Position numbers and translations under genes: made by a program. From Actibacterium sp. MT2.3-13A (lineage in GTDB: Bacteria; Pseudomonadota; Alphaproteobacteria; Rhodobacterales; Rhodobacteraceae), in the NCBI RefSeq assembly GCF_018139985.1, contig NZ_JAGSOU010000001.1, positions 248,001 to 312,000 of the forward strand: a stretch of 64,000 bases of DNA, read 5' to 3'. Shown piece after piece: positions 2,173 through 13,758 of the stretch. The notes under the pieces are model-generated. The model did not search any database. It worked only from the letters and a program-made list of their open reading frames with translations, and was not told where the DNA came from. How positions within the stretch are numbered: position 1 is the first letter of the stretch; each line of letters starts with the position of its first letter.

Positions 2173-5100
2173 CTATGGAGCGGCCCCCGCCCCGTCAAGA
2201 TGCGCCAGCGCCGCCGTGACCAGCGCGGATGGCAGCGGCATCAGCCGCGCCGCGCGCGTCCACAGGATCGCGGTCTCGATCCGGCGGCCCGGATAGACCG
2301 CCGCCAGCGCCGCCGCATAGGCCCCCATCTGACGCATGAGCCCGTCGGGCACCTCCTCGGGGCGCGCAGGCACGACGGCGTTGGATTTGAAATCCACCGC
2401 CAGCACCCGATCCTTTTCCACGATCAGCCGGTCGATGGCGCCGCGGATGCGCTGCCCGCCAAGCGCGGGCAGGCTGGCGCTGACATCGACCTCGGCGAGC
2501 GTTCCGGGGGCGAAGACATGGGCCAGGTCGGGGGCGCTGAGCACCGCGCGCGCCTCGGCCAGAAGCGTCTCTGTTTCGGCCGGATCGGGCGGGTTTTCGG
2601 CCTGGCGCAGCAGTTTCGGCGCCAGCGCGTCCCATTGCGCCGGGTCGGTGCCCGGCAGATGCTCCAGCAGCAGGTGCAGCAACGTGCCGCGCCGCATGGC
2701 CGCGGCCTCGTCCAGACCGTCCCCCTCGCCCGGCAGCGCCTTTGCCCCGCCGAGGTCCGAGGGCGCCAGCGCGGCGGCAGGCCGTTCCGGCACCGCGGCG
2801 CGCGCCCGGGCCCAATCCGGCAGGGCGACAGCCGCAGGTGCGGCCGGGGCTTTCGCCGCGACCGCCGCGCCGCCCCAATCGCCGGTTTCGTATCGCAGCC
2901 CCTGGCCGAAGCCGAAATCATGTTTCACCGCGCCGGCATGTTCCATGCCCGCCGCGATCCGCTCATACCAGGTCTTGCCCTTGTCCAGGTCGCCCGCGGC
3001 GCAGGTGATCAGCCATTGCTCGGCCCGGGTCATGGCGACGTAAAGCAGCCTCTGTCGCTCCTCCTCCTGACGCGTTCTCTGCTGGTTCAGGGCCTCGTTC
3101 ACTGCGTCCGGGCTGTCGCTGGCGGCCGGTTTCCAGATCGGCCGCCCCTGTGCGTCGGTGACGATTTCTCCCGGTTTCGGCGGCTGCCGCTTGCCGGTGT
3201 CGGGCAGGATCACGATCGGCGCCTCCAGCCCCTTGGAGCCATGCACCGTCATCACCCGGATGCGGTCGCCGGCAGCATCGAGCTGGCGCTTGATCTCCAC
3301 CTCCTCGGTTTCCAGCCAGGTGACGAAGCCGGTGAGGCTGGGCACCTCCATCCGCTCATAGGCCAGCGCCTGGCTGAGCAGCGCGTCGATCCCGTCCTCG
3401 GCCTCCTCGCCCAGCCGCGCGATCAGTTTCCGCCGCCCGTCATGGCGGGTGAGGATGCGCTCCAGCAGGTCGAAGGGGCGCAGGTAATCGGCGTCCTTCA
3501 GCAGCGCGTCGAGGATGCCAAAAGGCTCTGTTCCGGCCGGAAACCGCTTTCGCAGGGCTTCCCACAGGTATTTCTCGCCCCGCCCGGCGGCGAGGTCGTA
3601 AAGCCGCGCCTCGTCCCAGCCGAACAGCGGAGAGCGCAGGGCGGTCGCCAGCGACAGGCTGTCCTCGGGCAACGCCAGGAAGGACAGGAGCGCCTTGAGA
3701 TCGCGCACCGCCAGCTCGCCCCCGATCTTCAGCCGGTCGGCCCCGGCGATGGCCAGCCCCGCCGCCTTGCAGGCGCGGATGATCTCGTGGAACAGGTCGG
3801 AGCGGCGCTGAACCAGGATCAGGACATCGCCGGGCGTGACCGGGCGGCGCGCGCCGTTTTCCCAAAGGGTTTCGCCGCGGTCGATCATCGCCTTGATCTC
3901 GCCGGCCACGCGCTCGGCCAGCTTGACGCTGTGATGCTCGGGCGAGAGCGTGTTCACCGGGTCGGTCCAATGCGGGCGTTCGGGCTTCTCGGTCTTCTCG
4001 ACCAGGGGCCACAGGTCCACCCGCCCCGGCATCTCGCTGCGGAAGGCCAGGTGGCTGACCTCATCGCCCAAGCCAGCCCGGTCATGTTCCGGGAAGGTGG
4101 CGTCGACCACCCGCAGGATCGCGGGCGAGGAACGGAAGGAATACTCCAGCAGCAGGTTTTCCAGTGAAACAGAGACGTTTTCCAACCGCTCGGCGAAATG
4201 CCGGCGCATGCGGTCGAAGCCGTCGGGATCGGCCCCCTGGAAGGAATAGATCGATTGTTTCTGGTCCCCCACGACAAAGATCGTGCGCGCCACGTCGCGC
4301 GCGCCCTGGCCGGAGGTGAATTCCTGCGCCAGCAGGTCGATCACCTCCCATTGCAGGGGGCTGGTGTCCTGTGCCTCGTCCACCAGGATATGGTCGATCC
4401 CGCCGTCGAGACGGTAGAGCACCCATTCCGCCACGCTGCGGTCGGTCAGCAGGTTGCGCGCCTTGAGGATCAGGTCGTCGAAATCCAGCCAGCCGTGGCG
4501 CAGCTTGCGCGCCTCGTATTCCGGCAGGAAGGCGGCGGCGAAACGGTGCAGCGCAAGCGTCTTGCGCGCCGCGATGAGGGAAAGGCGCCTTTGCCGTGCG
4601 GCCTCGATCCGCAACATCAGCGGCTCGACCCGGCTGCTCAGGTCGGGGTTGGCCTCGCGCGTTTTCTTGGTGGGAAAAGAGCCAATCTTGGCCGAAAACG
4701 GCTCTTTCGCCCCGGACCCGAACAGGAACACGCTTTCGAGAGACTCGTAATCCGCCTTGCCGGGCACGGCGGTGTCGACATGCCTCAGCTTTTCGCCGGC
4801 TTTTACGTCGGTCGACGTGCCCGCGTCCAAAGCCGTCCGCAGATCGGCCAGAAGCTCTGCCTCGCCGCCGAGGAACACCTCACCCTTCAGCGCATCCTCG
4901 TCATAGCCCGCCGGCAGGTCCAGCATGTCCCAGATCGCGCCCGCATCGGGCTCGGCCGGAAAGGCATCGCGGTGCTTGGCGATGTCACCCACCAGCCTGT
5001 CGAGATCGTCGCCGGTGAACCAGGCGGCGATGCCGTCGAAAACCTCGGGGGCGGGGCCGTCGGCGAGGTCTTCGAGGATATCGGCGCGCAACCGCCGCGC

Positions 5101-5553
5101 GGCGCGGTCGTCCATCTCCACGAATTGCGGCGAGACGCCGGCCTCCAGCGGGAACCGCCGCAAGAGCGACGCGCAGAAGGAGTGGATGGTCTGGATCTTC
5201 AGCCCGCCCGGCGTCTCGATCGCGCGGGCAAACAGCCGCCGCGCCTCGCGCAGGGTTTCGTCGCGGATCTCGCCCTCCAGCCCTAGTTCGCGCAGCTTGC
5301 CGGTCAGCGTCTCCGCGTCCAGCATCGCCCATTCGCCCAGCCGCCGGAACAGCCGGTTCTGCATCTCGGAGGCCGCGGCCTTGGTGTAGGTCAGGCACAG
5401 GATGTGCTGCGGCTGGACATTGCCCAGCAGCAGCCGCGCCACCCGGTCGGTCAGCACCCGTGTCTTGCCCGAGCCCGCATTGGCCGACAGCCAGGTGGAA
5501 TTGCCTGGATAGGCGGCCTGGACCTGCCGTTCGGTGGCGGCATCGCGTTTCAT
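2173..5553 (-). CDS. addA: Double-strand break repair helicase-nuclease AddA
   Basis: An 1126-residue UvrD-type superfamily 1 helicase with a C-terminal RecB-like nuclease, the catalytic partner of AddB in processing double-strand breaks for RecA loading. Walker A is SANAGSGKT at residues 23-31. Later helicase motifs include [26 protein letters not shown] and [13 protein letters not shown]. The nuclease motif is the LAVDFKSN stretch with Asp near residue 1054. The ATG at 5553 overlaps the addB stop as ATGA, so the two subunits are translationally coupled; the open frame 14 codons longer is inside addB. Three copies of the recurrent low-GC motif described in the findings lie within this gene. 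Confidence 0.95.
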
Positions 5554-8492
5554 TCGCCCACCTTCATCAGTTGCGCCGGCTGGCTTTCGTCCCATTCGCC
5601 GAAGCGCGACAGCTGGTCGTAATCGGTCACCTCCTCGCGCTTTTCCAGCATCCGGCGGGGCATGTAGCCCTGCGTCGCGCTGGAATAGGCGTCGATCAGT
5701 TCGTGCAGCTCGGTCCAGACCGTGCCCAGCAGTTCGGCATCGACCTCGTGCGGGAACTCGCCGGGTTTCGCGCCCAGCCCGATATAGGCCACCCCGTCCA
5801 CGGTTTCGGGGGGCAGCGCGTCAAAGCCGCCGCGCTCGGCGATCAGGGCCTCAAGGTAGAGCTGCTTGTCGAATTCCCTCATCTGCGGCTCGCTGGGCGG
5901 CGTGCCGGTCTTGTAGTCGTAGATCATCAGCCCGCCCGCGTTCAGCCGGTCGATCCGGTCGGCCTCGGCGGTGAGGGTAAAGCCGTTTTGCAGTGAAACA
6001 GAGCCTTTCCGCTCCAGCGCGACCCAGTTGCCGCGGGCGTTCCGCGCGGCCTCGTCGGCGACGAAACTGTCGGCCACGCGCGCCAGCCGCGCGCGCCACA
6101 TGCGCCGCGCGGCGGGCCAGGGGGCGTGTTCGGTCAGCACCCGGTCGGCGGTGGCCAGGAAACGGGCCTTCGCCTCGGCCGGGTCGCCCGGAACGCCGTC
6201 GCGCAGGAAATCCTCCAGCACCTTGTGCAGGATCGTGCCGCGCAGCAGCGCGTCGGGCTCGGCGCGCAGCGGGTCGAGCGGGCGCAGGTTCAGCACATAG
6301 GCCGCATAGATCGCGTAGGGGTCGCGGATCAGCGTCTTGATCCGGGTCACCGACAGGCGGGCGGGCCGCGCGGCGACGGGCGGGCAGGGGGCCGGGCGTG
6401 GCGCGGGCGGCACGGGGACGTCGGGCCGCTCGAACGCCTCGGCCATGTCCAGCAACGCCCGGCCGCGCGCGCACATCGCGCTCAGCGCCTCGGGCCCGCC
6501 CTGATCAGGCAGCCCGCGCAGCAGGTTGGTCAGCCGGTTGAGCCAGCGCGAGGCGACGGTCTCGGCCTCGGCATCGCGCACGGCGCGCGACAGGATCACC
6601 TCCCGCGCGGCCACCGCCTGCTGAAAGTCATGCGCCGAAAGCCCGATCCGCCGCTCGGGCAGCAGCAGGCCCAGCCGTTTGCGCATGTCGCGGTTCAGCC
6701 AGGGGTCGGGCGGGGCCATCTGCGGCCAGATCCCCTCGTTCAGCCCGCCGAGGATGACCAGGTCGGCGCCCTGCACGCGCGCCTCCAGCGTGCCCCAGAT
6801 CATGATGCCGGGATGCGGAAGCTTGGGGTCGCGGACCTCGTGGCGGTTTAGGACGGAATGGAAGAGATTGGCGTAGTCGGCCGGCGACATCTCGCCGCCA
6901 TATCCGGCCTCGGCGCGCAGTTCGTCCAGCGCGGTGCGGGCCTTTTCGCCGGCCGCCGCGTCCCACAGGGCGCCCGCGCCGTCGCCCTGCGGGCCCTGGG
7001 CCAGACGTTCGGCCAGCGCCACATGGGTCTCCACATGATCGCTGAGCGGTCGGGCGCCGATCGCGTCGATGCCGTCCAGGCATCCGGCCAGCCATTCGGC
7101 CCAGTCCGCACGCCCGTCGTCCCGGTCGCGCGCACGGGCCCAGTGCCGCAGATCCGCGGCGGTGGGGAAGGGCGGGCCGTTGCGGCGCAGCGACAGCTCC
7201 AGCTCGCGGGTCCAGAGCAGATGCGGGCCGCGGTCGGAGCCGGTGGCGGTCAGCGGATGCTTCAGCAGCGTCAGCAGCGCCTCGGCCGTCACTTTCTGAC
7301 CGAAGAGAGACGCAACATGGCGGAAAAACCGCCCCGGCGCGGATAGCGGCAGCGGCGTGCCCGCGCTGTCGTCGGGCTCGATCCCCCAGCGGTCGAGCGT
7401 GGCGGCGACGCGGCGCGTCAGCATCCGGTCGGGCGTGATCAGCGCCGCCGTCGTGCCGTGCTCGGCGGCCTGGCGCAGACGCAGGGCAATGGCCAGCGCC
7501 TCGTCCCGGGGCGAGGGCGCCTCGATCAGGGTCATGGCGGCGGCGGCCTTGGCGATGTCGGTCAGCCTGTGGCCGTCCTCCAGCCACTGATCGGTCACCG
7601 GCGCGGGGCGCAGCGCCAGCGAAATCAGGCGGTTTCGGGCCGGGTTAGGCTCCGAATCCGCCGCCCAGGGCGAGACATCGGCGCGAGTCAGCTCCAGCGC
7701 GTCCATCAGCCGGCGGAAGCGGAATTGCGGGTGATCCTCGGCGGTCAGCGCGTCGTCCAGCCGGTCCCAGACATGGGCGGGCTGATCGAAATCGAAGCCG
7801 GGCAACACCACCGCCCCCTGTGGCAGGCGCGCAACCGCCTCCATGAACAGCGCCGTCGCCCCGCGCGAGCCGGTGGAGCCGGCGACGATCACCGGATGCA
7901 TCGGCGGGTTTTCGGCCCATTGCGCGGCAAGGCGCTGGGCCACGAGGCGGCGGCGCGCCTCGGCGTCGGGGGCCTCCTGCACGGCCTCGCCGAAGAAATG
8001 CTCGACGATGGAAATGAAGGCGCGGGTGCGCGCCCAATGCGCCGAGAGGTGCGAAACGTCGAGGTCATGCAGCGCCGACGGATCGACACCCTCGCCATGC
8101 ATCTCGTCCATCAGCCCGGCCAGGCTGTCGGCGAGGTCGAACACCGCGGCGCGCGGGGCGAGATCGGGCGCGCGCTGGACCAGCCGGGCAACGAGCTGTG
8201 CCAGTTCCAGCCGGCGGCGCAGCGGCGGCACGGCGGGGGGCAGGTCGGCCGAGGCGGGGCCATCGCCCAGCTCGGTCAGAAGGCGGATGCAGGGCAGGAG
8301 CCGCGCCGGGCCCGCGTCGAACAGCGCCGACAGGCGCCGCCGCATCCGGTGGGTGTTGACGAAGATCTCCACCCGCGCCCAGGCCTCGGGCGGCTGGCCC
8401 GACAGTCTCTGTTCCAGCCCGTTCAGCAGGGCGGCGGGGAAATCGGCACCGGGCGGCAGGCCGAAGAGGCGGGGGCCGCGGCCGTCAAACAT
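5550..8492 (-). CDS. addB: Double-strand break repair protein AddB
   Basis: A 980-residue protein of the alphaproteobacterial AddB type: an N-terminal helicase-like region without a convincing ATP-binding motif and a C-terminal PD-(D/E)XK nuclease domain (EADRIDRL followed by IYDYKTG). It forms the AddAB recombination complex with the next gene. The start chosen is ATG at 8492 (MFDGRGPRLFGLPPG), which overlaps the murU stop by 8 bp; an earlier ATG at 8549 lies well inside murU. The 3' end overlaps addA. The Fe-S cysteines of some Firmicute AddB proteins were not evident. Function is assigned from gene order and domain layout. Confidence 0.92.
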   Translation of the reverse strand: MFDGRGPRLFGLPPGADFPAALLNGLEQRLSGQPPEAWARVEIFVNTHRMRRRLSALFDAGPARLLPCIRLLTELGDGPASADLPPAVPPLRRRLELAQLVARLVQRAPDLAPRAAVFDLADSLAGLMDEMHGEGVDPSALHDLDVSHLSAHWARTRAFISIVEHFFGEAVQEAPDAEARRRLVAQRLAAQWAENPPMHPVIVAGSTGSRGATALFMEAVARLPQGAVVLPGFDFDQPAHVWDRLDDALTAEDHPQFRFRRLMDALELTRADVSPWAADSEPNPARNRLISLALRPAPVTDQWLEDGHRLTDIAKAAAAMTLIEAPSPRDEALAIALRLRQAAEHGTTAALITPDRMLTRRVAATLDRWGIEPDDSAGTPLPLSAPGRFFRHVASLFGQKVTAEALLTLLKHPLTATGSDRGPHLLWTRELELSLRRNGPPFPTAADLRHWARARDRDDGRADWAEWLAGCLDGIDAIGARPLSDHVETHVALAERLAQGPQGDGAGALWDAAAGEKARTALDELRAEAGYGGEMSPADYANLFHSVLNRHEVRDPKLPHPGIMIWGTLEARVQGADLVILGGLNEGIWPQMAPPDPWLNRDMRKRLGLLLPERRIGLSAHDFQQAVAAREVILSRAVRDAEAETVASRWLNRLTNLLRGLPDQGGPEALSAMCARGRALLDMAEAFERPDVPVPPAPRPAPCPPVAARPARLSVTRIKTLIRDPYAIYAAYVLNLRPLDPLRAEPDALLRGTILHKVLEDFLRDGVPGDPAEAKARFLATADRVLTEHAPWPAARRMWRARLARVADSFVADEAARNARGNWVALERKGSVSLQNGFTLTAEADRIDRLNAGGLMIYDYKTGTPPSEPQMREFDKQLYLEALIAERGGFDALPPETVDGVAYIGLGAKPGEFPHEVDAELLGTVWTELHELIDAYSSATQGYMPRRMLEKREEVTDYDQLSRFGEWDESQPAQLMKVGE

Positions 8493-9183
8493 CGCGCGCC
8501 TCGGCCAGCATCGCCTCGGCCGCGGCGATGCCTTCGGGGCTTCCGACATCGCACCAGTTGCCGGGATGGACGACGCCGAAGACTCGCTGGTCGGTCAGCA
8601 TCGAATCCCACAGCAGGTTCAGCGAAAACACCCGGTCGGGAATGGTGGCCAGCCCGTCGGGGCGCAGGATCTGCGCGCCGGAATAGACGAAGCCGCCGCC
8701 GCGCGAGATGCGGCCATCGGCGTGCAGCGCGAAATCGCCCTGGCCGGCGTGGCCGCGCGCCCGGTCGCGCGGCACCAGCAGCAGCAGCGCGTCCATGACC
8801 GCCGGATCCCAGGCCGCGGCGAGGGTGTGCAGCGGGTTCGGCCCGGTCCAGGCGGCGTCGGTGTTCAGGGTGAAGACCGGCCCCGGTCCCAGCAGCGGCA
8901 GCGCCTGGCGCAGCCCGCCGCCGGTGTCGAGGATCTCGGGCGTCTCGTGCGAAATCCGCACGCCGGGGCGATCGCCGATATGCGCGGCGATCTGGTCGGC
9001 CCGGTAATGCGCGTTCACCACCACGGGCGCCACCCCGGCGGACTCGGCCAGAGAGAGCGCATGGTCGATCAGCGGCCGCCCGGCCACCTCGATCAGCGGT
9101 TTCGGGCGGGCGGCGGTCAGCGCGCCCATGCGCGTGCCGAATCCCGCGGCGTAGAGCATCAGGGCTTTGGGGTGGTCGGGCAT
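8485..9183 (-). CDS. murU: N-acetylmuramate alpha-1-phosphate uridylyltransferase (MurU-like)
   Basis: A 232-residue NTP-transferase-fold nucleotidyltransferase. The N-terminal signature LMLYAAGFGTRMGALTAARPKPL matches the family's GxGTRM nucleotide-binding loop and is followed by PLIDHAL and the metal-binding NTDAAW. Placed directly after an aminoglycoside-phosphotransferase-like sugar kinase, it fits the AmgK-MurU peptidoglycan-recycling pair, which makes UDP-MurNAc from recovered MurNAc and so bypasses de novo MurA/MurB synthesis. The ATG at 9183 overlaps amgK by 25 bp. Assignment to MurU rather than another sugar nucleotidyltransferase rests on the pairing. Confidence 0.85.
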   Translation of the reverse strand: MPDHPKALMLYAAGFGTRMGALTAARPKPLIEVAGRPLIDHALSLAESAGVAPVVVNAHYRADQIAAHIGDRPGVRISHETPEILDTGGGLRQALPLLGPGPVFTLNTDAAWTGPNPLHTLAAAWDPAVMDALLLLVPRDRARGHAGQGDFALHADGRISRGGGFVYSGAQILRPDGLATIPDRVFSLNLLWDSMLTDQRVFGVVHPGNWCDVGSPEGIAAAEAMLAEARDV

Positions 9184-10190
9184 CGGGCCTTGATCCTTTC
9201 GCGGATTTCGGCGTCGGGGGCCGGGATCAGCCGCGCGACGCGCTCGCGCAGCCCGGCCAGAGCCGGATGGGCGAGATCGTGCTGCAGATGGTCCCAGACG
9301 CGGGGCATCAGATCCACATAATGCGGCTTTCCGTCCCGGATGCAAAGCCGGGCGAAGACCCCGAGGATACGCAGGTTGCGCTGGGCGCCGAGGCAGGCAT
9401 AGGCGGCGGCGAAGGCCGCGCGCCCGACCCCGGTGGCGGCGATGTAGCGCGCGATCATCGCCTGTTGCAGCGCGGCGGGCACGTCGCGTCGGGCATCCTC
9501 CAGCAGGGAGACGAGGTCATAGGCCGGGTGGCCGGCCATGCCGTCCTGGAAATCCAGCAGGCCGACGCGGGCGATGCCGGCGCGCCCGGGCAGCCAGATC
9601 AGGTTCTCGGCGTGATAATCACGCTGGGCGAGAACCGACGTGTCGTCGCAATAGCGGGCCAGAATGGTTTCTAACTCGGCCTGAAATGCCTGCTTTTCGC
9701 CCGGCGCCGCCGCGGCGACGGCGGGCAGATACCAGTCGAAGGGCAGCGCGCCGAGTGGCGCCATGGTGGCCGGATCATAGGCCGCCAGATCCGCCGGGGC
9801 GGGGTGGCGGTGCAACTCGGCCAAGAGGTCGATGGCGCATTCGTAAAGCGGCGTCTCGAGGCCCGGATCGGCGGCGATCGCGCGGGCATAGAGCGCGTCT
9901 CCCAGGTCCTCGAGCAGGAGGAGGCCGCGGTCGGCGTCCTCGGCCAGGATCTCGGGCGCGCTGAGGCCGAGGCCGCGCAGGTGCCGCGCGATGCGGACGA
10001 AGGGGCGCACGTCCTCTCCGGTTTCGGGGGGCGCGTCCATCAGGACGGCACTTGCGCCGGCGGCCGGGTCGGTCAACCGGTCGTAGCGCCGGTTCGAGGC
10101 ATCGCCCGCCAGCACCACGCGCGCCGCCCCGGCCCAGCCGGCGCGGGCGAGAAAGGCGTCGATCAGGACGCCGCGCTCAGGGGTTGGCAT
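9159..10190 (-). CDS. amgK: Anomeric MurNAc/GlcNAc kinase (AmgK-like phosphotransferase)
   Basis: A 343-residue protein with the aminoglycoside phosphotransferase/choline kinase fold. The Brenner-type catalytic loop is seen in QRDYHAENLIW, and the metal-binding DFQDG follows. In the known pathway AmgK phosphorylates MurNAc at the anomeric carbon and MurU then uridylylates it. The ATG at 10190 sits inside the end of tsaE (14-bp overlap); the open frame extends upstream but only within tsaE. The tsaE-amgK-murU order is common in alphaproteobacteria. Older databases call this family simply phosphotransferase. Confidence 0.85.
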   Translation of the reverse strand: MPTPERGVLIDAFLARAGWAGAARVVLAGDASNRRYDRLTDPAAGASAVLMDAPPETGEDVRPFVRIARHLRGLGLSAPEILAEDADRGLLLLEDLGDALYARAIAADPGLETPLYECAIDLLAELHRHPAPADLAAYDPATMAPLGALPFDWYLPAVAAAAPGEKQAFQAELETILARYCDDTSVLAQRDYHAENLIWLPGRAGIARVGLLDFQDGMAGHPAYDLVSLLEDARRDVPAALQQAMIARYIAATGVGRAAFAAAYACLGAQRNLRILGVFARLCIRDGKPHYVDLMPRVWDHLQHDLAHPALAGLRERVARLIPAPDAEIRERIKARCPTTPKP

Positions 10191-10680
10191 GCGGGAAATC
10201 CTTGACTGTTGCGGCCAAACGCGCGGCCCAGCCCGCGTCGCCCGACAGCGCCACCCGATGCGTGCCGTCGGGCAGGGCGGCAAAGTCGAGCCGCAGCGCC
10301 GCAGGCGGCGCCAACTCGCCCAGCCGGTCGGGCCATTCGACCAGGCACAGCGCGGTCTCGAAGGCGTCGATCAGGCCCAGCTCGATCACCTCGTCGGGGT
10401 GGCTCAGGCGGTAGAGATCGGCATGCCAGATCTCCAGCGGCCCGGCCTCGTAGCTTTGCACCAGGGTGAAGGTGGGCGAGGGGATGTCCTCAACCAGACC
10501 ATGCGCGGCGAGGCGGGCGCGGATCAGGGCGCGGGCGAAATGGGTCTTGCCCGCGCCGATGGGCCCGGACAGCAACAGCACGTCGCCCGGCCCCGCCAGC
10601 GCGCCGACGCGTTCGGCCAGCATGGCGGTGTCCTGTTCCGAGGGCAGGGGGATCGTGGCGGAAAGGGTGGCGCTGCTCAT
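10177..10680 (-). CDS. tsaE: tRNA threonylcarbamoyladenosine biosynthesis ATPase TsaE
   Basis: A 167-residue P-loop ATPase that works with TsaB and TsaD in forming the t6A modification at position 37 of ANN-decoding tRNAs. Walker A GPIGAGKT is at residues 39-46; the family motifs SPTFTLV and HADLYRL follow. The length is normal. It starts the tightly overlapped tsaE-amgK-murU-addB-addA series and begins 42 bp after the PAS-protein gene stop. Its functional partner tsaD is about 10 kb away in this same window. Confidence 0.95.
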   Translation of the reverse strand: MSSATLSATIPLPSEQDTAMLAERVGALAGPGDVLLLSGPIGAGKTHFARALIRARLAAHGLVEDIPSPTFTLVQSYEAGPLEIWHADLYRLSHPDEVIELGLIDAFETALCLVEWPDRLGELAPPAALRLDFAALPDGTHRVALSGDAGWAARLAATVKDFPHANP

Positions 10681-10722: not shown

Positions 10723-12279
10723 TCAGGGGGGCGTGACGGAAAGCGCCGGCACGGCCACCGGCGCGGCGAAGCCGATCAGCGTGGCGCCCCCGGCCAGCGG
10801 CTGCATGCGGCAGATCAGCCCACCGCCGTCGTGCAGGGTGACGGGGTGGCGGCTGGCGGTGCGCGGGCCGAAGCGGCGGACGAAATCGCGCGCCTGCGCC
10901 CAGACCGGCGAGGGCCGGCAGGCGGCCTGCCAATGCTCGCTGGCCTCGGCGATGCCGATCTCGCAGAGCGTGACCGAGGGGTCGATCCCCCAGAGCCGCG
11001 CATAGGCCTCGTTGGAGAGGGTCAGCACGCCGGCGGGCGAAAACACGGCGATCGCCTCGTCCAGCCCGTCGATCACCGCCTGGCCCAGCTCCAGCTCGGA
11101 GCGGAAGCGGCGGGTGAGCGATATTTCGGCGCTGATATCCTCGAACAGGAAGGCCAGCGCGCCGTCGGGATGCGGCCGGCCCGACACGCGGTAGGTCTGG
11201 CCGGTGGGCAGGGTCCAGGTCTCGTGGTAGGTGCCGGTGGCGACCTCCTCTTCCAGCGCGGTCATGCGTTGGCGCCAGTCCTTGTAATCCTTGGGCTCTG
11301 GCATCATCCGCCTGTCGCGCAGCCGGTCGAGAAAGGCCGTCAGCGTCGGGCGCGCGGTCAGGAACTGCGGCTCCAGCGCGCACAGATCGGTGAGCGCCGG
11401 GTTGAACAGCACCAATTCGCGGGCGCGGTTGAAGATGGCCAGGCCGATGGGCAGATCGGCGAAGGTCTTGGTCAGGGTCTGGCGGAAATTGCGCAGCGAG
11501 GTTTCGGCCTGCACGGCGGCATTGGCGGGCTGCGCGAAATAGAGCGGCCCGCCGGGGCGGGGCACGGCGGTGCAGTCATACCATTGCGCGGGCTTGCCCG
11601 GCGTTTCGATCACCACCCGGTGCGGCGCCATTTCGTTGACCCCGACGGTCAGCGGGTCGGACTGGAAAAGCTGCGGCAGCGGCCAGGTCAGCTCCGCCCC
11701 CTCGGGCAGGCGCTGCTCGACCTGGGAGAGATAGGCGCGGTTCGCCCAGGTGACGGTCCCGGCGGCATCCTGCGTCCAGGCCAGCGACGGCATATGGGCG
11801 ACGACCCGGCGCAGGATCTCCAGCTCCTCCTGGAGGGCCGACAGGCTGGGCCCGTCGATCGGGCCGCGGCGCGGCGCGTCCGGCCGCAGCAGCGTGATCC
11901 GCGTCACCCCGCGGCTGAAACGCGCGCACAGGCCGGGGCGTCCGTCGCGGTCGTCAAGCTCGGCGAGGCCGGTCTCGGGCAGCCGCGCCATGGCCTGGCT
12001 GAACCCGGGAAAACGCTGCGACAGCAGCGCGGCGAGGCGTGGCCAGTCGAGCATCCCCTCGGGGCCGTTGTCGAGGAAACGGCGCGCCTCGGGCGTGGCA
12101 TCGAGCAGGATCTCGCCGTCGAAGAGGAACACCATGTCGGCGCCCTGCACTGCCCCGCCATCGGCCAGCAGGCCGCGCGAGCGGGGCGCGGGCAGGCGCG
12201 GCACGGCGAAGAGCGTCAGCGCCACGGTCAGCACCGAGGTCAGCCCGAGAACCGCTGCCATCCCCCAGTCGAACGCCAT
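10723..12279 (-). CDS. Membrane-anchored PAS-domain protein, DivL-like
   Basis: A 518-residue protein with one N-terminal membrane segment (about residues 5-27), an acidic linker and at least two PAS-like regions (LPIGLAIFNRARELVLFNPAL; IDGLDEAIAVFSPAGVLTLSNEAYARLWGI). No histidine-kinase ATPase domain follows; the protein ends after the last PAS region. This matches the shortened DivL-type PAS proteins of Rhodobacterales that act in the CckA-ChpT-CtrA pathway rather than as kinases. Support comes from a consensus CtrA box in its leader (12336-12351). The gene lies 81 bp downstream of regB on the same strand. Alternative: a generic PAS sensor in redox signalling. Function is inferred. Confidence 0.65.
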   Translation of the reverse strand: MAFDWGMAAVLGLTSVLTVALTLFAVPRLPAPRSRGLLADGGAVQGADMVFLFDGEILLDATPEARRFLDNGPEGMLDWPRLAALLSQRFPGFSQAMARLPETGLAELDDRDGRPGLCARFSRGVTRITLLRPDAPRRGPIDGPSLSALQEELEILRRVVAHMPSLAWTQDAAGTVTWANRAYLSQVEQRLPEGAELTWPLPQLFQSDPLTVGVNEMAPHRVVIETPGKPAQWYDCTAVPRPGGPLYFAQPANAAVQAETSLRNFRQTLTKTFADLPIGLAIFNRARELVLFNPALTDLCALEPQFLTARPTLTAFLDRLRDRRMMPEPKDYKDWRQRMTALEEEVATGTYHETWTLPTGQTYRVSGRPHPDGALAFLFEDISAEISLTRRFRSELELGQAVIDGLDEAIAVFSPAGVLTLSNEAYARLWGIDPSVTLCEIGIAEASEHWQAACRPSPVWAQARDFVRRFGPRTASRHPVTLHDGGGLICRMQPLAGGATLIGFAAPVAVPALSVTPP

Positions 12280-12335
12280 GAGATCCGCCTTTCTGCCGGA
12301 GCTTTTCGCCGCCGGGCATTAAGGTCTCATAAAGG

Positions 12336-12351
12336 TTAAATCCGGGTTAAC
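12336..12351 (-). promoter_or_regulatory. CtrA-binding box upstream of the PAS/DivL-like gene
   Basis: The sequence TTAAATCCGGGTTAAC is an exact match to the full CtrA consensus TTAA-N7-TTAAC. It lies 57-72 bp upstream of the ATG at 12279, in the 81-bp gap after regB. No other full match was found in the window by eye. Confidence 0.7.
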
Positions 12352-12360
12352 GCGGCCCTC

Positions 12361-13758
12361 TCAGCCAAGGATGGGCTGGTTCTCTCCCAGCGGGCCGGCG
12401 CTGCGGTCGGCGCCGATCAGCGTGCGGGGCCAGATCACCTCGACCACGGCGCCGCAGCGCTCGGGCCGGTTCTCGGGCGCCAGGTAGGGGTCGGAGCCGT
12501 TGGCGAAACTCAACTGCGCGCCGGTGCGTTCCAGCAGGGTCTTGGCGATGAACAGGCCCAGCCCCATCCCGGCATAGCCGGGGCGCTTGCGGATCTCGTC
12601 CTCGGTGCGGCGGTGGCGCATGAAGGGGTCGCCGATCCGGTCCAGCACCTGCTGGGTATAGCCCGCGCCGTCGTCGGAGATGCGGACGCCGATCTGGTCG
12701 TCGCTCCAGAACCCTTCGACCCAGACATTGCCTTCGGCGAAATCCACCGCGTTCTGCACGAGGTTGCGCAGGCCGTGGATGATCTCCGGGCGGCGGCGGA
12801 TCGCGGGCTGTCGGTCCTCGGCGCCGGGCAGGGGGGCGATCTCGAAATGCAGGGCCTTGCCACGGTCCTGGTGCGGCTCGGCGGCCTCCTCCAGCAGCCG
12901 TTGCAGGGGGGCGGTGCGCAGGTGCAGGTCGTCCTTTCCGGCCCGGCCCATGGAATGCAGGATGTCGCGGCAGCGGTCGGCCTGCTCGGCGATCAGCGCC
13001 GCGTCGTCGCGCAACTCGGGGCGGTCGGACAGCTCGTCCCGGAGTTCGGAGCTGACCAGCTTGATTGTGGCCAGCGGCGTGCCCAGTTCATGCGCGGCGG
13101 CGGCGACGACGCCGCCCAGGTCGGTCAGCTTCTGTTCACGCGCGAGGGCCATCTGGGTGGCGAGAAAGGCATCGGACATGGTGTTGATCTCCGAGCTGAT
13201 CCGCAGCGCGTAGGCCGCCAGGAACGCCACGCCGATCACGATCGCCACCCAGAAGCCGAACAGATAGATGTCGGGCATCCGCATGATGTCGCCGAAGGCG
13301 TCGCGCAGCGGCAAGTGGACATAGGCCGACAACGTGATCAGCCCGATTGCCACCACCCCCAGCAGCAATGTCGGGCCAAGCCGCAGCGCGGTCGCCGAGA
13401 TCGTCACCGGCGTCAGCAGCAGCAGCGCGAAGGGGTTGTTCAGTCCGCCGGTCAGCATCAGCAGCAGCGCCAGCTGGGTGACGTCGAACAGCAGCATGAG
13501 CATCGTCTCGATCTCGGTCAGCCGCTTGTTCTTGGGATAGATCGCGATCGCAAGCAGGTTGGCGATGATGGCCGCACCGACCACCAGATAGCACAGCCCG
13601 GTGTTGATCTGCAGGCCGAACACACGCTGCGCGACCTCCAGCGCGACCAGTTGGCCTGCGATCGCCACCCAGCGCAGCCAGGTCAGCGTGCGCAGCGGCA
13701 CCCACTGGCTGCGGTCGAACGGGGCCGGAAGGCCACTCTCCCTTGGCGGCGTGTTCAT
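12361..13758 (-). CDS. regB: Redox sensor histidine kinase RegB/PrrB
   Basis: A 465-residue membrane sensor kinase that phosphorylates RegA when oxygen is low. Six likely membrane segments occupy about residues 25-185. The ubiquinone-binding motif GGLNNPF is at 104-110, the H-box AAAAHELGTPLATIK carries the phosphorylated His near residue 223, and the redox-active Cys of the DRCRDIL motif is near residue 263 (equivalent to Cys265 in Rhodobacter capsulatus). N, G1 and G2 boxes follow (LRNLVQNAVDFAEG, DDGAGY, GMGLGLFIAK). It diverges from senC-regA across a 92-bp gap, the standard arrangement of this locus. Confidence 0.97.
   Translation of the reverse strand: MNTPPRESGLPAPFDRSQWVPLRTLTWLRWVAIAGQLVALEVAQRVFGLQINTGLCYLVVGAAIIANLLAIAIYPKNKRLTEIETMLMLLFDVTQLALLLMLTGGLNNPFALLLLTPVTISATALRLGPTLLLGVVAIGLITLSAYVHLPLRDAFGDIMRMPDIYLFGFWVAIVIGVAFLAAYALRISSEINTMSDAFLATQMALAREQKLTDLGGVVAAAAHELGTPLATIKLVSSELRDELSDRPELRDDAALIAEQADRCRDILHSMGRAGKDDLHLRTAPLQRLLEEAAEPHQDRGKALHFEIAPLPGAEDRQPAIRRRPEIIHGLRNLVQNAVDFAEGNVWVEGFWSDDQIGVRISDDGAGYTQQVLDRIGDPFMRHRRTEDEIRKRPGYAGMGLGLFIAKTLLERTGAQLSFANGSDPYLAPENRPERCGAVVEVIWPRTLIGADRSAGPLGENQPILG

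Follow-up and report, generated by a model that had tools for sequence, protein, structure and literature searches.

A conserved CtrA box upstream of a short, kinase-less divL gene in Actibacterium sp. MT2.3-13A

Caulobacter DivL is a membrane protein rich in PAS domains that belongs to the CckA-ChpT-CtrA pathway. In Actibacterium sp. MT2.3-13A, a gene for a DivL-like PAS protein is separated from the redox sensor kinase gene regB by a gap of 81 bp, and this gap holds a consensus CtrA box. Does the CtrA pathway control one of its own components through this site, and does the neighbouring regB have any part in it? Here, I address the question in a window of 64 kb (the whole stretch of DNA analysed), in the rest of the genome and in the corresponding loci of relatives.

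The box and the gene that it precedes

The box, GTTAAATCCGGGTTAAC at 12335-12351, is the sole full CtrA box that a pattern scan detects in the window. On the plus strand, TTAAATCCGGGTTAAC spans 12336-12351 as an exact TTAA-N7-TTAAC; the box being palindromic, the minus strand likewise matches TTAA-N7-TTAAC at 12350-12335, and the consensus of a full CtrA binding box is found without mismatch on both strands. Read along with divL, on the minus strand, the sequence is TTAAC-CCGGAT-TTAAC. It is located 57-72 bp upstream of the divL ATG (12279, minus strand), and the regB stop codon lies at 12361. The pattern scan thereby confirms the original prediction as to motif, position and distance, and its second element, a DivL-like PAS protein lacking a kinase domain, is borne out below by a short DivL orthologous to that of R. 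capsulatus. As to rarity, 100 dinucleotide shuffles of the window yield no TTAA-N7-TTAA, against one in the real window; across the 3.6-Mb genome there are 8 distinct TTAA-N7-TTAAC sites (11 strand matches), versus 5 for a reversed control pattern. By itself, the string is just mildly enriched genome-wide and is not decisive; the divL box owes its significance to its position and to its conservation in 79 of 80 orthologue promoters.

The gene divL (10723-12279, minus strand) encodes a 518-aa PAS protein with a transmembrane helix at residues 5-28 and four predicted PAS domains (about 49-130, 166-251, 278-381 and 409-505), and is devoid of a DHp/CA domain. Pfam assigns PAS families only to the ORF. 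Likewise, the AlphaFold2 model has a single helix at the N-terminus and then four PAS-like domains with helical connections, and stops after the fourth PAS with nothing beyond; with a mean pLDDT of 83 and a pTM of 0.41, the relative placement of the domains is not trusted. With this model, Foldseek retrieves proteins that have PAS domains in tandem, among them PpsR and FixL, and a sequence search against solved structures gave no match. A membrane anchor followed by PAS domains, the kinase domain being absent in both the Pfam and the AlphaFold2 analyses, is the make-up of a short DivL.

Among 292 sampled genomes of the order, 289 contain a DivL match. Searches in other families of the class give long proteins of 812-875 aa as best matches; their H-box reads VSY(Q/E)LR(T/N)PL, that is, with Tyr at the phospho-acceptor position, which is the hallmark of Caulobacter DivL; the PAS region of the Actibacterium protein is related to these long Tyr-type DivL proteins. 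Long members within the same family carry His, Tyr or Thr at that position. Caulobacter DivL keeps its Tyr-pseudokinase module and binds DivK, whereas the present DivL is without a kinase module.

In R. capsulatus, the orthologue (locus L120) sits between regB and tsaE. The primers published for R. capsulatus divL rcc00042 (PMC9143464) fit L120 with 0-2 mismatches, and control primers of other genes with 5 or more; the published divL gel-shift probe corresponds to L120 3654-3853 and covers the box at 3791. Judged by regB-divL-tsaE synteny and by these primer matches, the Actibacterium gene is orthologous to rcc00042, and its product is assigned to the short DivL of Rhodobacterales.

Conservation of the box and loss of the kinase domain

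The expectation that orthologues would share the box has been examined and holds: of the 80 named genomes, 79 carry an exact TTAA-N7-TTAA 5' of divL, each other spacing is seen in 0-2, and the lone exception has a one-mismatch box. In a set of 29 relatives with upstream DNA, which includes the window's own genome and overlaps with the 80 in some genomes, 26 have the exact motif 5' of divL, and among spacers of 2 to 14 tested there, none but N7 is seen more than twice. The three misses are a one-mismatch box (L035), a boxless locus with an in-frame stop (L036) and a long DivL (L041). In L036 the in-frame codon is TGA, and this divL may be a pseudogene that has lost the site. Also of note is genus g68 (L147-L150, L157 and L158), the DivL of which is shorter, about 400-420 aa, and is without the N-terminal PAS region; the CtrA box is still present in 5 of its 6 genomes.

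When the 80 promoters are anchored on the box, the alignment displays TTAAC-N6-TTAACCATT and then a second conserved block around +27 to +32 resembling a -10 element; in Actibacterium this corresponds to CCTTAATG (12316-12323, minus strand), some 12 nt downstream of the box. In orthologue promoters, the end of the box precedes the start codon by a median of 51 bp. The 20 bases before and the 50 bases after are unconserved, and because the flanks have diverged on both sides, relatedness alone cannot explain the conservation of the box; on these alignments, the divL box is identified as a conserved element and not as a chance occurrence. Within the regB-divL gap, a scan for sigma-70 promoters and terminators gave no match and no terminator-like hairpin, and an RNA family search retrieved nothing.

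The distribution of the box follows the architecture of the protein. Long DivL genes with a recognisable H-box, from divergent family members and outgroups, are boxless in all 10 cases; the box is present in 4 of 5 longer DivL genes without a recognisable H-box and in 26 of 30 short DivL genes sampled. On a tree of 45 rows, with an uncertain root and several uncertain long branches, the box labels cluster strongly, no shuffle being as low. That the box tracks the loss of the DivL kinase domain is a modest addition to a known link. A tentative scenario, rated at slightly below even chances, is that the box was gained as the kinase domain was lost, at the base of the Rhodobacteraceae short-DivL clade, with a transcriptional input from CtrA to divL taking the place of a post-translational one from DivK to DivL. 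The regB-divL neighbourhood is older than the box; regB already precedes divL in some long, boxless members.

The predicted feedback loop and competing readings

The site is, with high probability, the CtrA-binding site of the divL promoter, at which CtrA~P would activate divL, DivL in turn raising CckA kinase activity in a positive feedback; both CtrA binding in this organism and the sign of its effect are inferred. CtrA~P would bind the palindromic TTAAC-N6-TTAAC box, overlapping the -35 region, and recruit RNA polymerase to the -10 element about 12 nt further on, with a predicted transcription start some 30-40 nt upstream of the ATG. The product, a membrane-anchored PAS stack without kinase module, would then promote the kinase activity of CckA and, via ChpT, lead to more CtrA~P; the box would thereby close a positive feedback loop, beside cckA and ctrA autoregulation.

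Activation is the favoured direction because published ctrA mutants of relatives have less divL transcript: D. shibae expresses less divL when ctrA, chpT or cckA is mutated (PMC4046655), and R. capsulatus does so when ctrA is knocked out (PMC6363796). That DivL promotes CtrA phosphorylation has been shown by others in relatives, and, as cited in PMC9143464, the kinase activity of CckA in R. capsulatus is enhanced by DivL. On the other hand, ctrA overexpression in R. capsulatus raised divL only mildly, and no binding of purified R. capsulatus CtrA to the ctrA promoter could be detected there, despite a near-consensus box in that promoter (PMC6363796); a consensus match is therefore no guarantee of binding.

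The best-placed competing reading, albeit an unlikely one, is that the box chiefly serves the whole divL-tsaE-amgK-murU-addB run and that CtrA also controls the downstream genes, e.g. addB for DNA repair. The minus-strand genes that follow divL at 5550-10680 overlap or are separated by short gaps; they are tsaE, a gene for an amgK-like kinase, one for a murU-like nucleotidyltransferase, and addB. Of these, tsaE (10177-10680, TIGR00150 over cut-off) begins 42 nt downstream of divL, is possibly co-transcribed with it and comes after divL in 71 of 80 loci. Yet the box is present in all 9 loci without a tsaE match, its conservation being independent of tsaE adjacency. As a separate observation, CtrA-driven read-through past divL could link the phosphorelay to t6A modification, cell-wall recycling and AddB repair.

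Much less credible is repression of divL by CtrA, making the loop a negative feedback: overlap of the box with the presumed -35 region is a position able to block polymerase, but the fall of the divL transcript in ctrA mutants of two relatives speaks against it, and the constant spacing of a -10-like element agrees with activation.

That the site primarily serves a redox regulator (FnrL, Dnr or RegA), tied to the adjacent regB, is very improbable. In R. capsulatus, FnrL sites, from ChIP or in silico, have been reported next to divL, and a TTAAC half-site is common to the motifs of Dnr and CtrA (PMC7232146); a consensus scan of the gap, however, gave no match for FNR or RegA, and the conserved motif is TTAAC-N6-TTAACC, not TTGAT-N4-ATCAA. 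Along the same line, the placement next to RegB, to which the original prediction had drawn attention, stands as adjacency but not as function. The gene regB (12361-13758, minus strand; NCBIfam NF045988 over cut-off) is indeed the upstream, same-strand neighbour of divL; beyond it, on the opposite strand, lie regA (NCBIfam over cut-off) and a SCO1/SenC-like gene, the latter named by reading its sequence, with no NCBIfam match at 1e-10. A special functional link of regB to the CtrA box is not supported, since the synteny predates the box, the gap contains no RegA or FNR consensus, and regA and regB transcripts are unchanged in R. capsulatus phosphorelay mutants (PMC7232146).

Finally, a chance match, or a part of regB transcription termination, might be argued from the 8 distinct genome sites (about twice the reversed control pattern), but its probability is negligible: near-universal conservation with strict N7 spacing already refutes it, a terminator-like hairpin is absent from the gap, and the probability that one of 8 randomly placed sites falls in an 81-bp gap is about 2e-4 (arithmetic from the genome census).

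Published relatives and the other CtrA boxes of the genome

The finding of a CtrA box at divL is correct but was already known in kind, the link having been predicted in 2010, and the present locus is an ordinary, well-supported instance of it. Brilli et al. (PMC2877005) predicted CtrA control of cckA and divL in DivK-less Rhodobacterales, described their DivL as lacking the kinase domain, and noted that CtrA control of its own kinase theoretically yields feedback. Regulator, target, kinase-less DivL and predicted feedback in their Rhodobacterales 'cluster B' are all as found here, including full boxes at both cckA and divL; nothing essential differs, and what is added is one genome, with a tight test of conservation and promoter architecture. 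The short DivL has also been described, with a likely truncation step, in PMC9430884. Feedback of CtrA on a component of its own pathway, as the original prediction proposed, is thus supported by the transcript data of D. shibae and R. capsulatus and is not new.

In D. shibae, divL (Dshi_3433; PMC4046655), likened by its published gene name, has a CtrA site in its promoter besides the lowered expression in the mutants. R. capsulatus divL (rcc00042; Westbye 2018 as cited, PMC6363796, PMC9143464) likewise follows regB, precedes tsaE and has a full box at locus L120; the two DivL proteins are about 49-50% identical and the box spacers differ in sequence. A literature search turned up no CtrA ChIP-seq study that reports divL in Rhodobacter. 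Near-universal conservation supports the conclusion that the Rhodobacteraceae CtrA phosphorelay transcriptionally controls its own CckA modulator. Such a loop bears on the timing with which motility, quorum sensing and gene transfer agents (GTA) are switched on, and the defined 17-bp site is a mutation target in R. capsulatus for the role of feedback in the on/off heterogeneity of GTA production.

The remainder of the circuit is encoded in the Actibacterium genome: CtrA (NF045991 over cut-off, 424 bits), ChpT and CckA, the last adjoining its own full CtrA box. A one-mismatch box, GTAACGTGTAATTAAC, is located 68 bp upstream of ctrA; the ctrA box of R. capsulatus is of the same form, GTAAC-N6-TTAAC (PMC6363796). 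Besides cckA, full boxes are found near olsB/chpT, a ParA-like gene, a sigma-32-like factor, curli/LuxR-type genes, an SLT transglycosylase gene and one unnamed gene.

Three of these sites are worth describing. The first lies between the divergent chpT and olsB (ornithine lipid acyltransferase) at L005 1501-1516 (G000:C22:16145-16160), 96 bp upstream of olsB and about 245 bp upstream of chpT; either gene may be served, and chpT has been reported not to be CtrA-controlled in D. shibae. The second, at L006 1501-1516 (G000:C22:32218-32233), has a curlin-repeat gene on one side and a gene for a LuxR-family regulator on the other, and suggests CtrA control of curli-like fibres. The third is about 30 bp upstream of the sigma-32-like sigma factor gene, at L002 1501-1516 (G000:C11:69562-69577).
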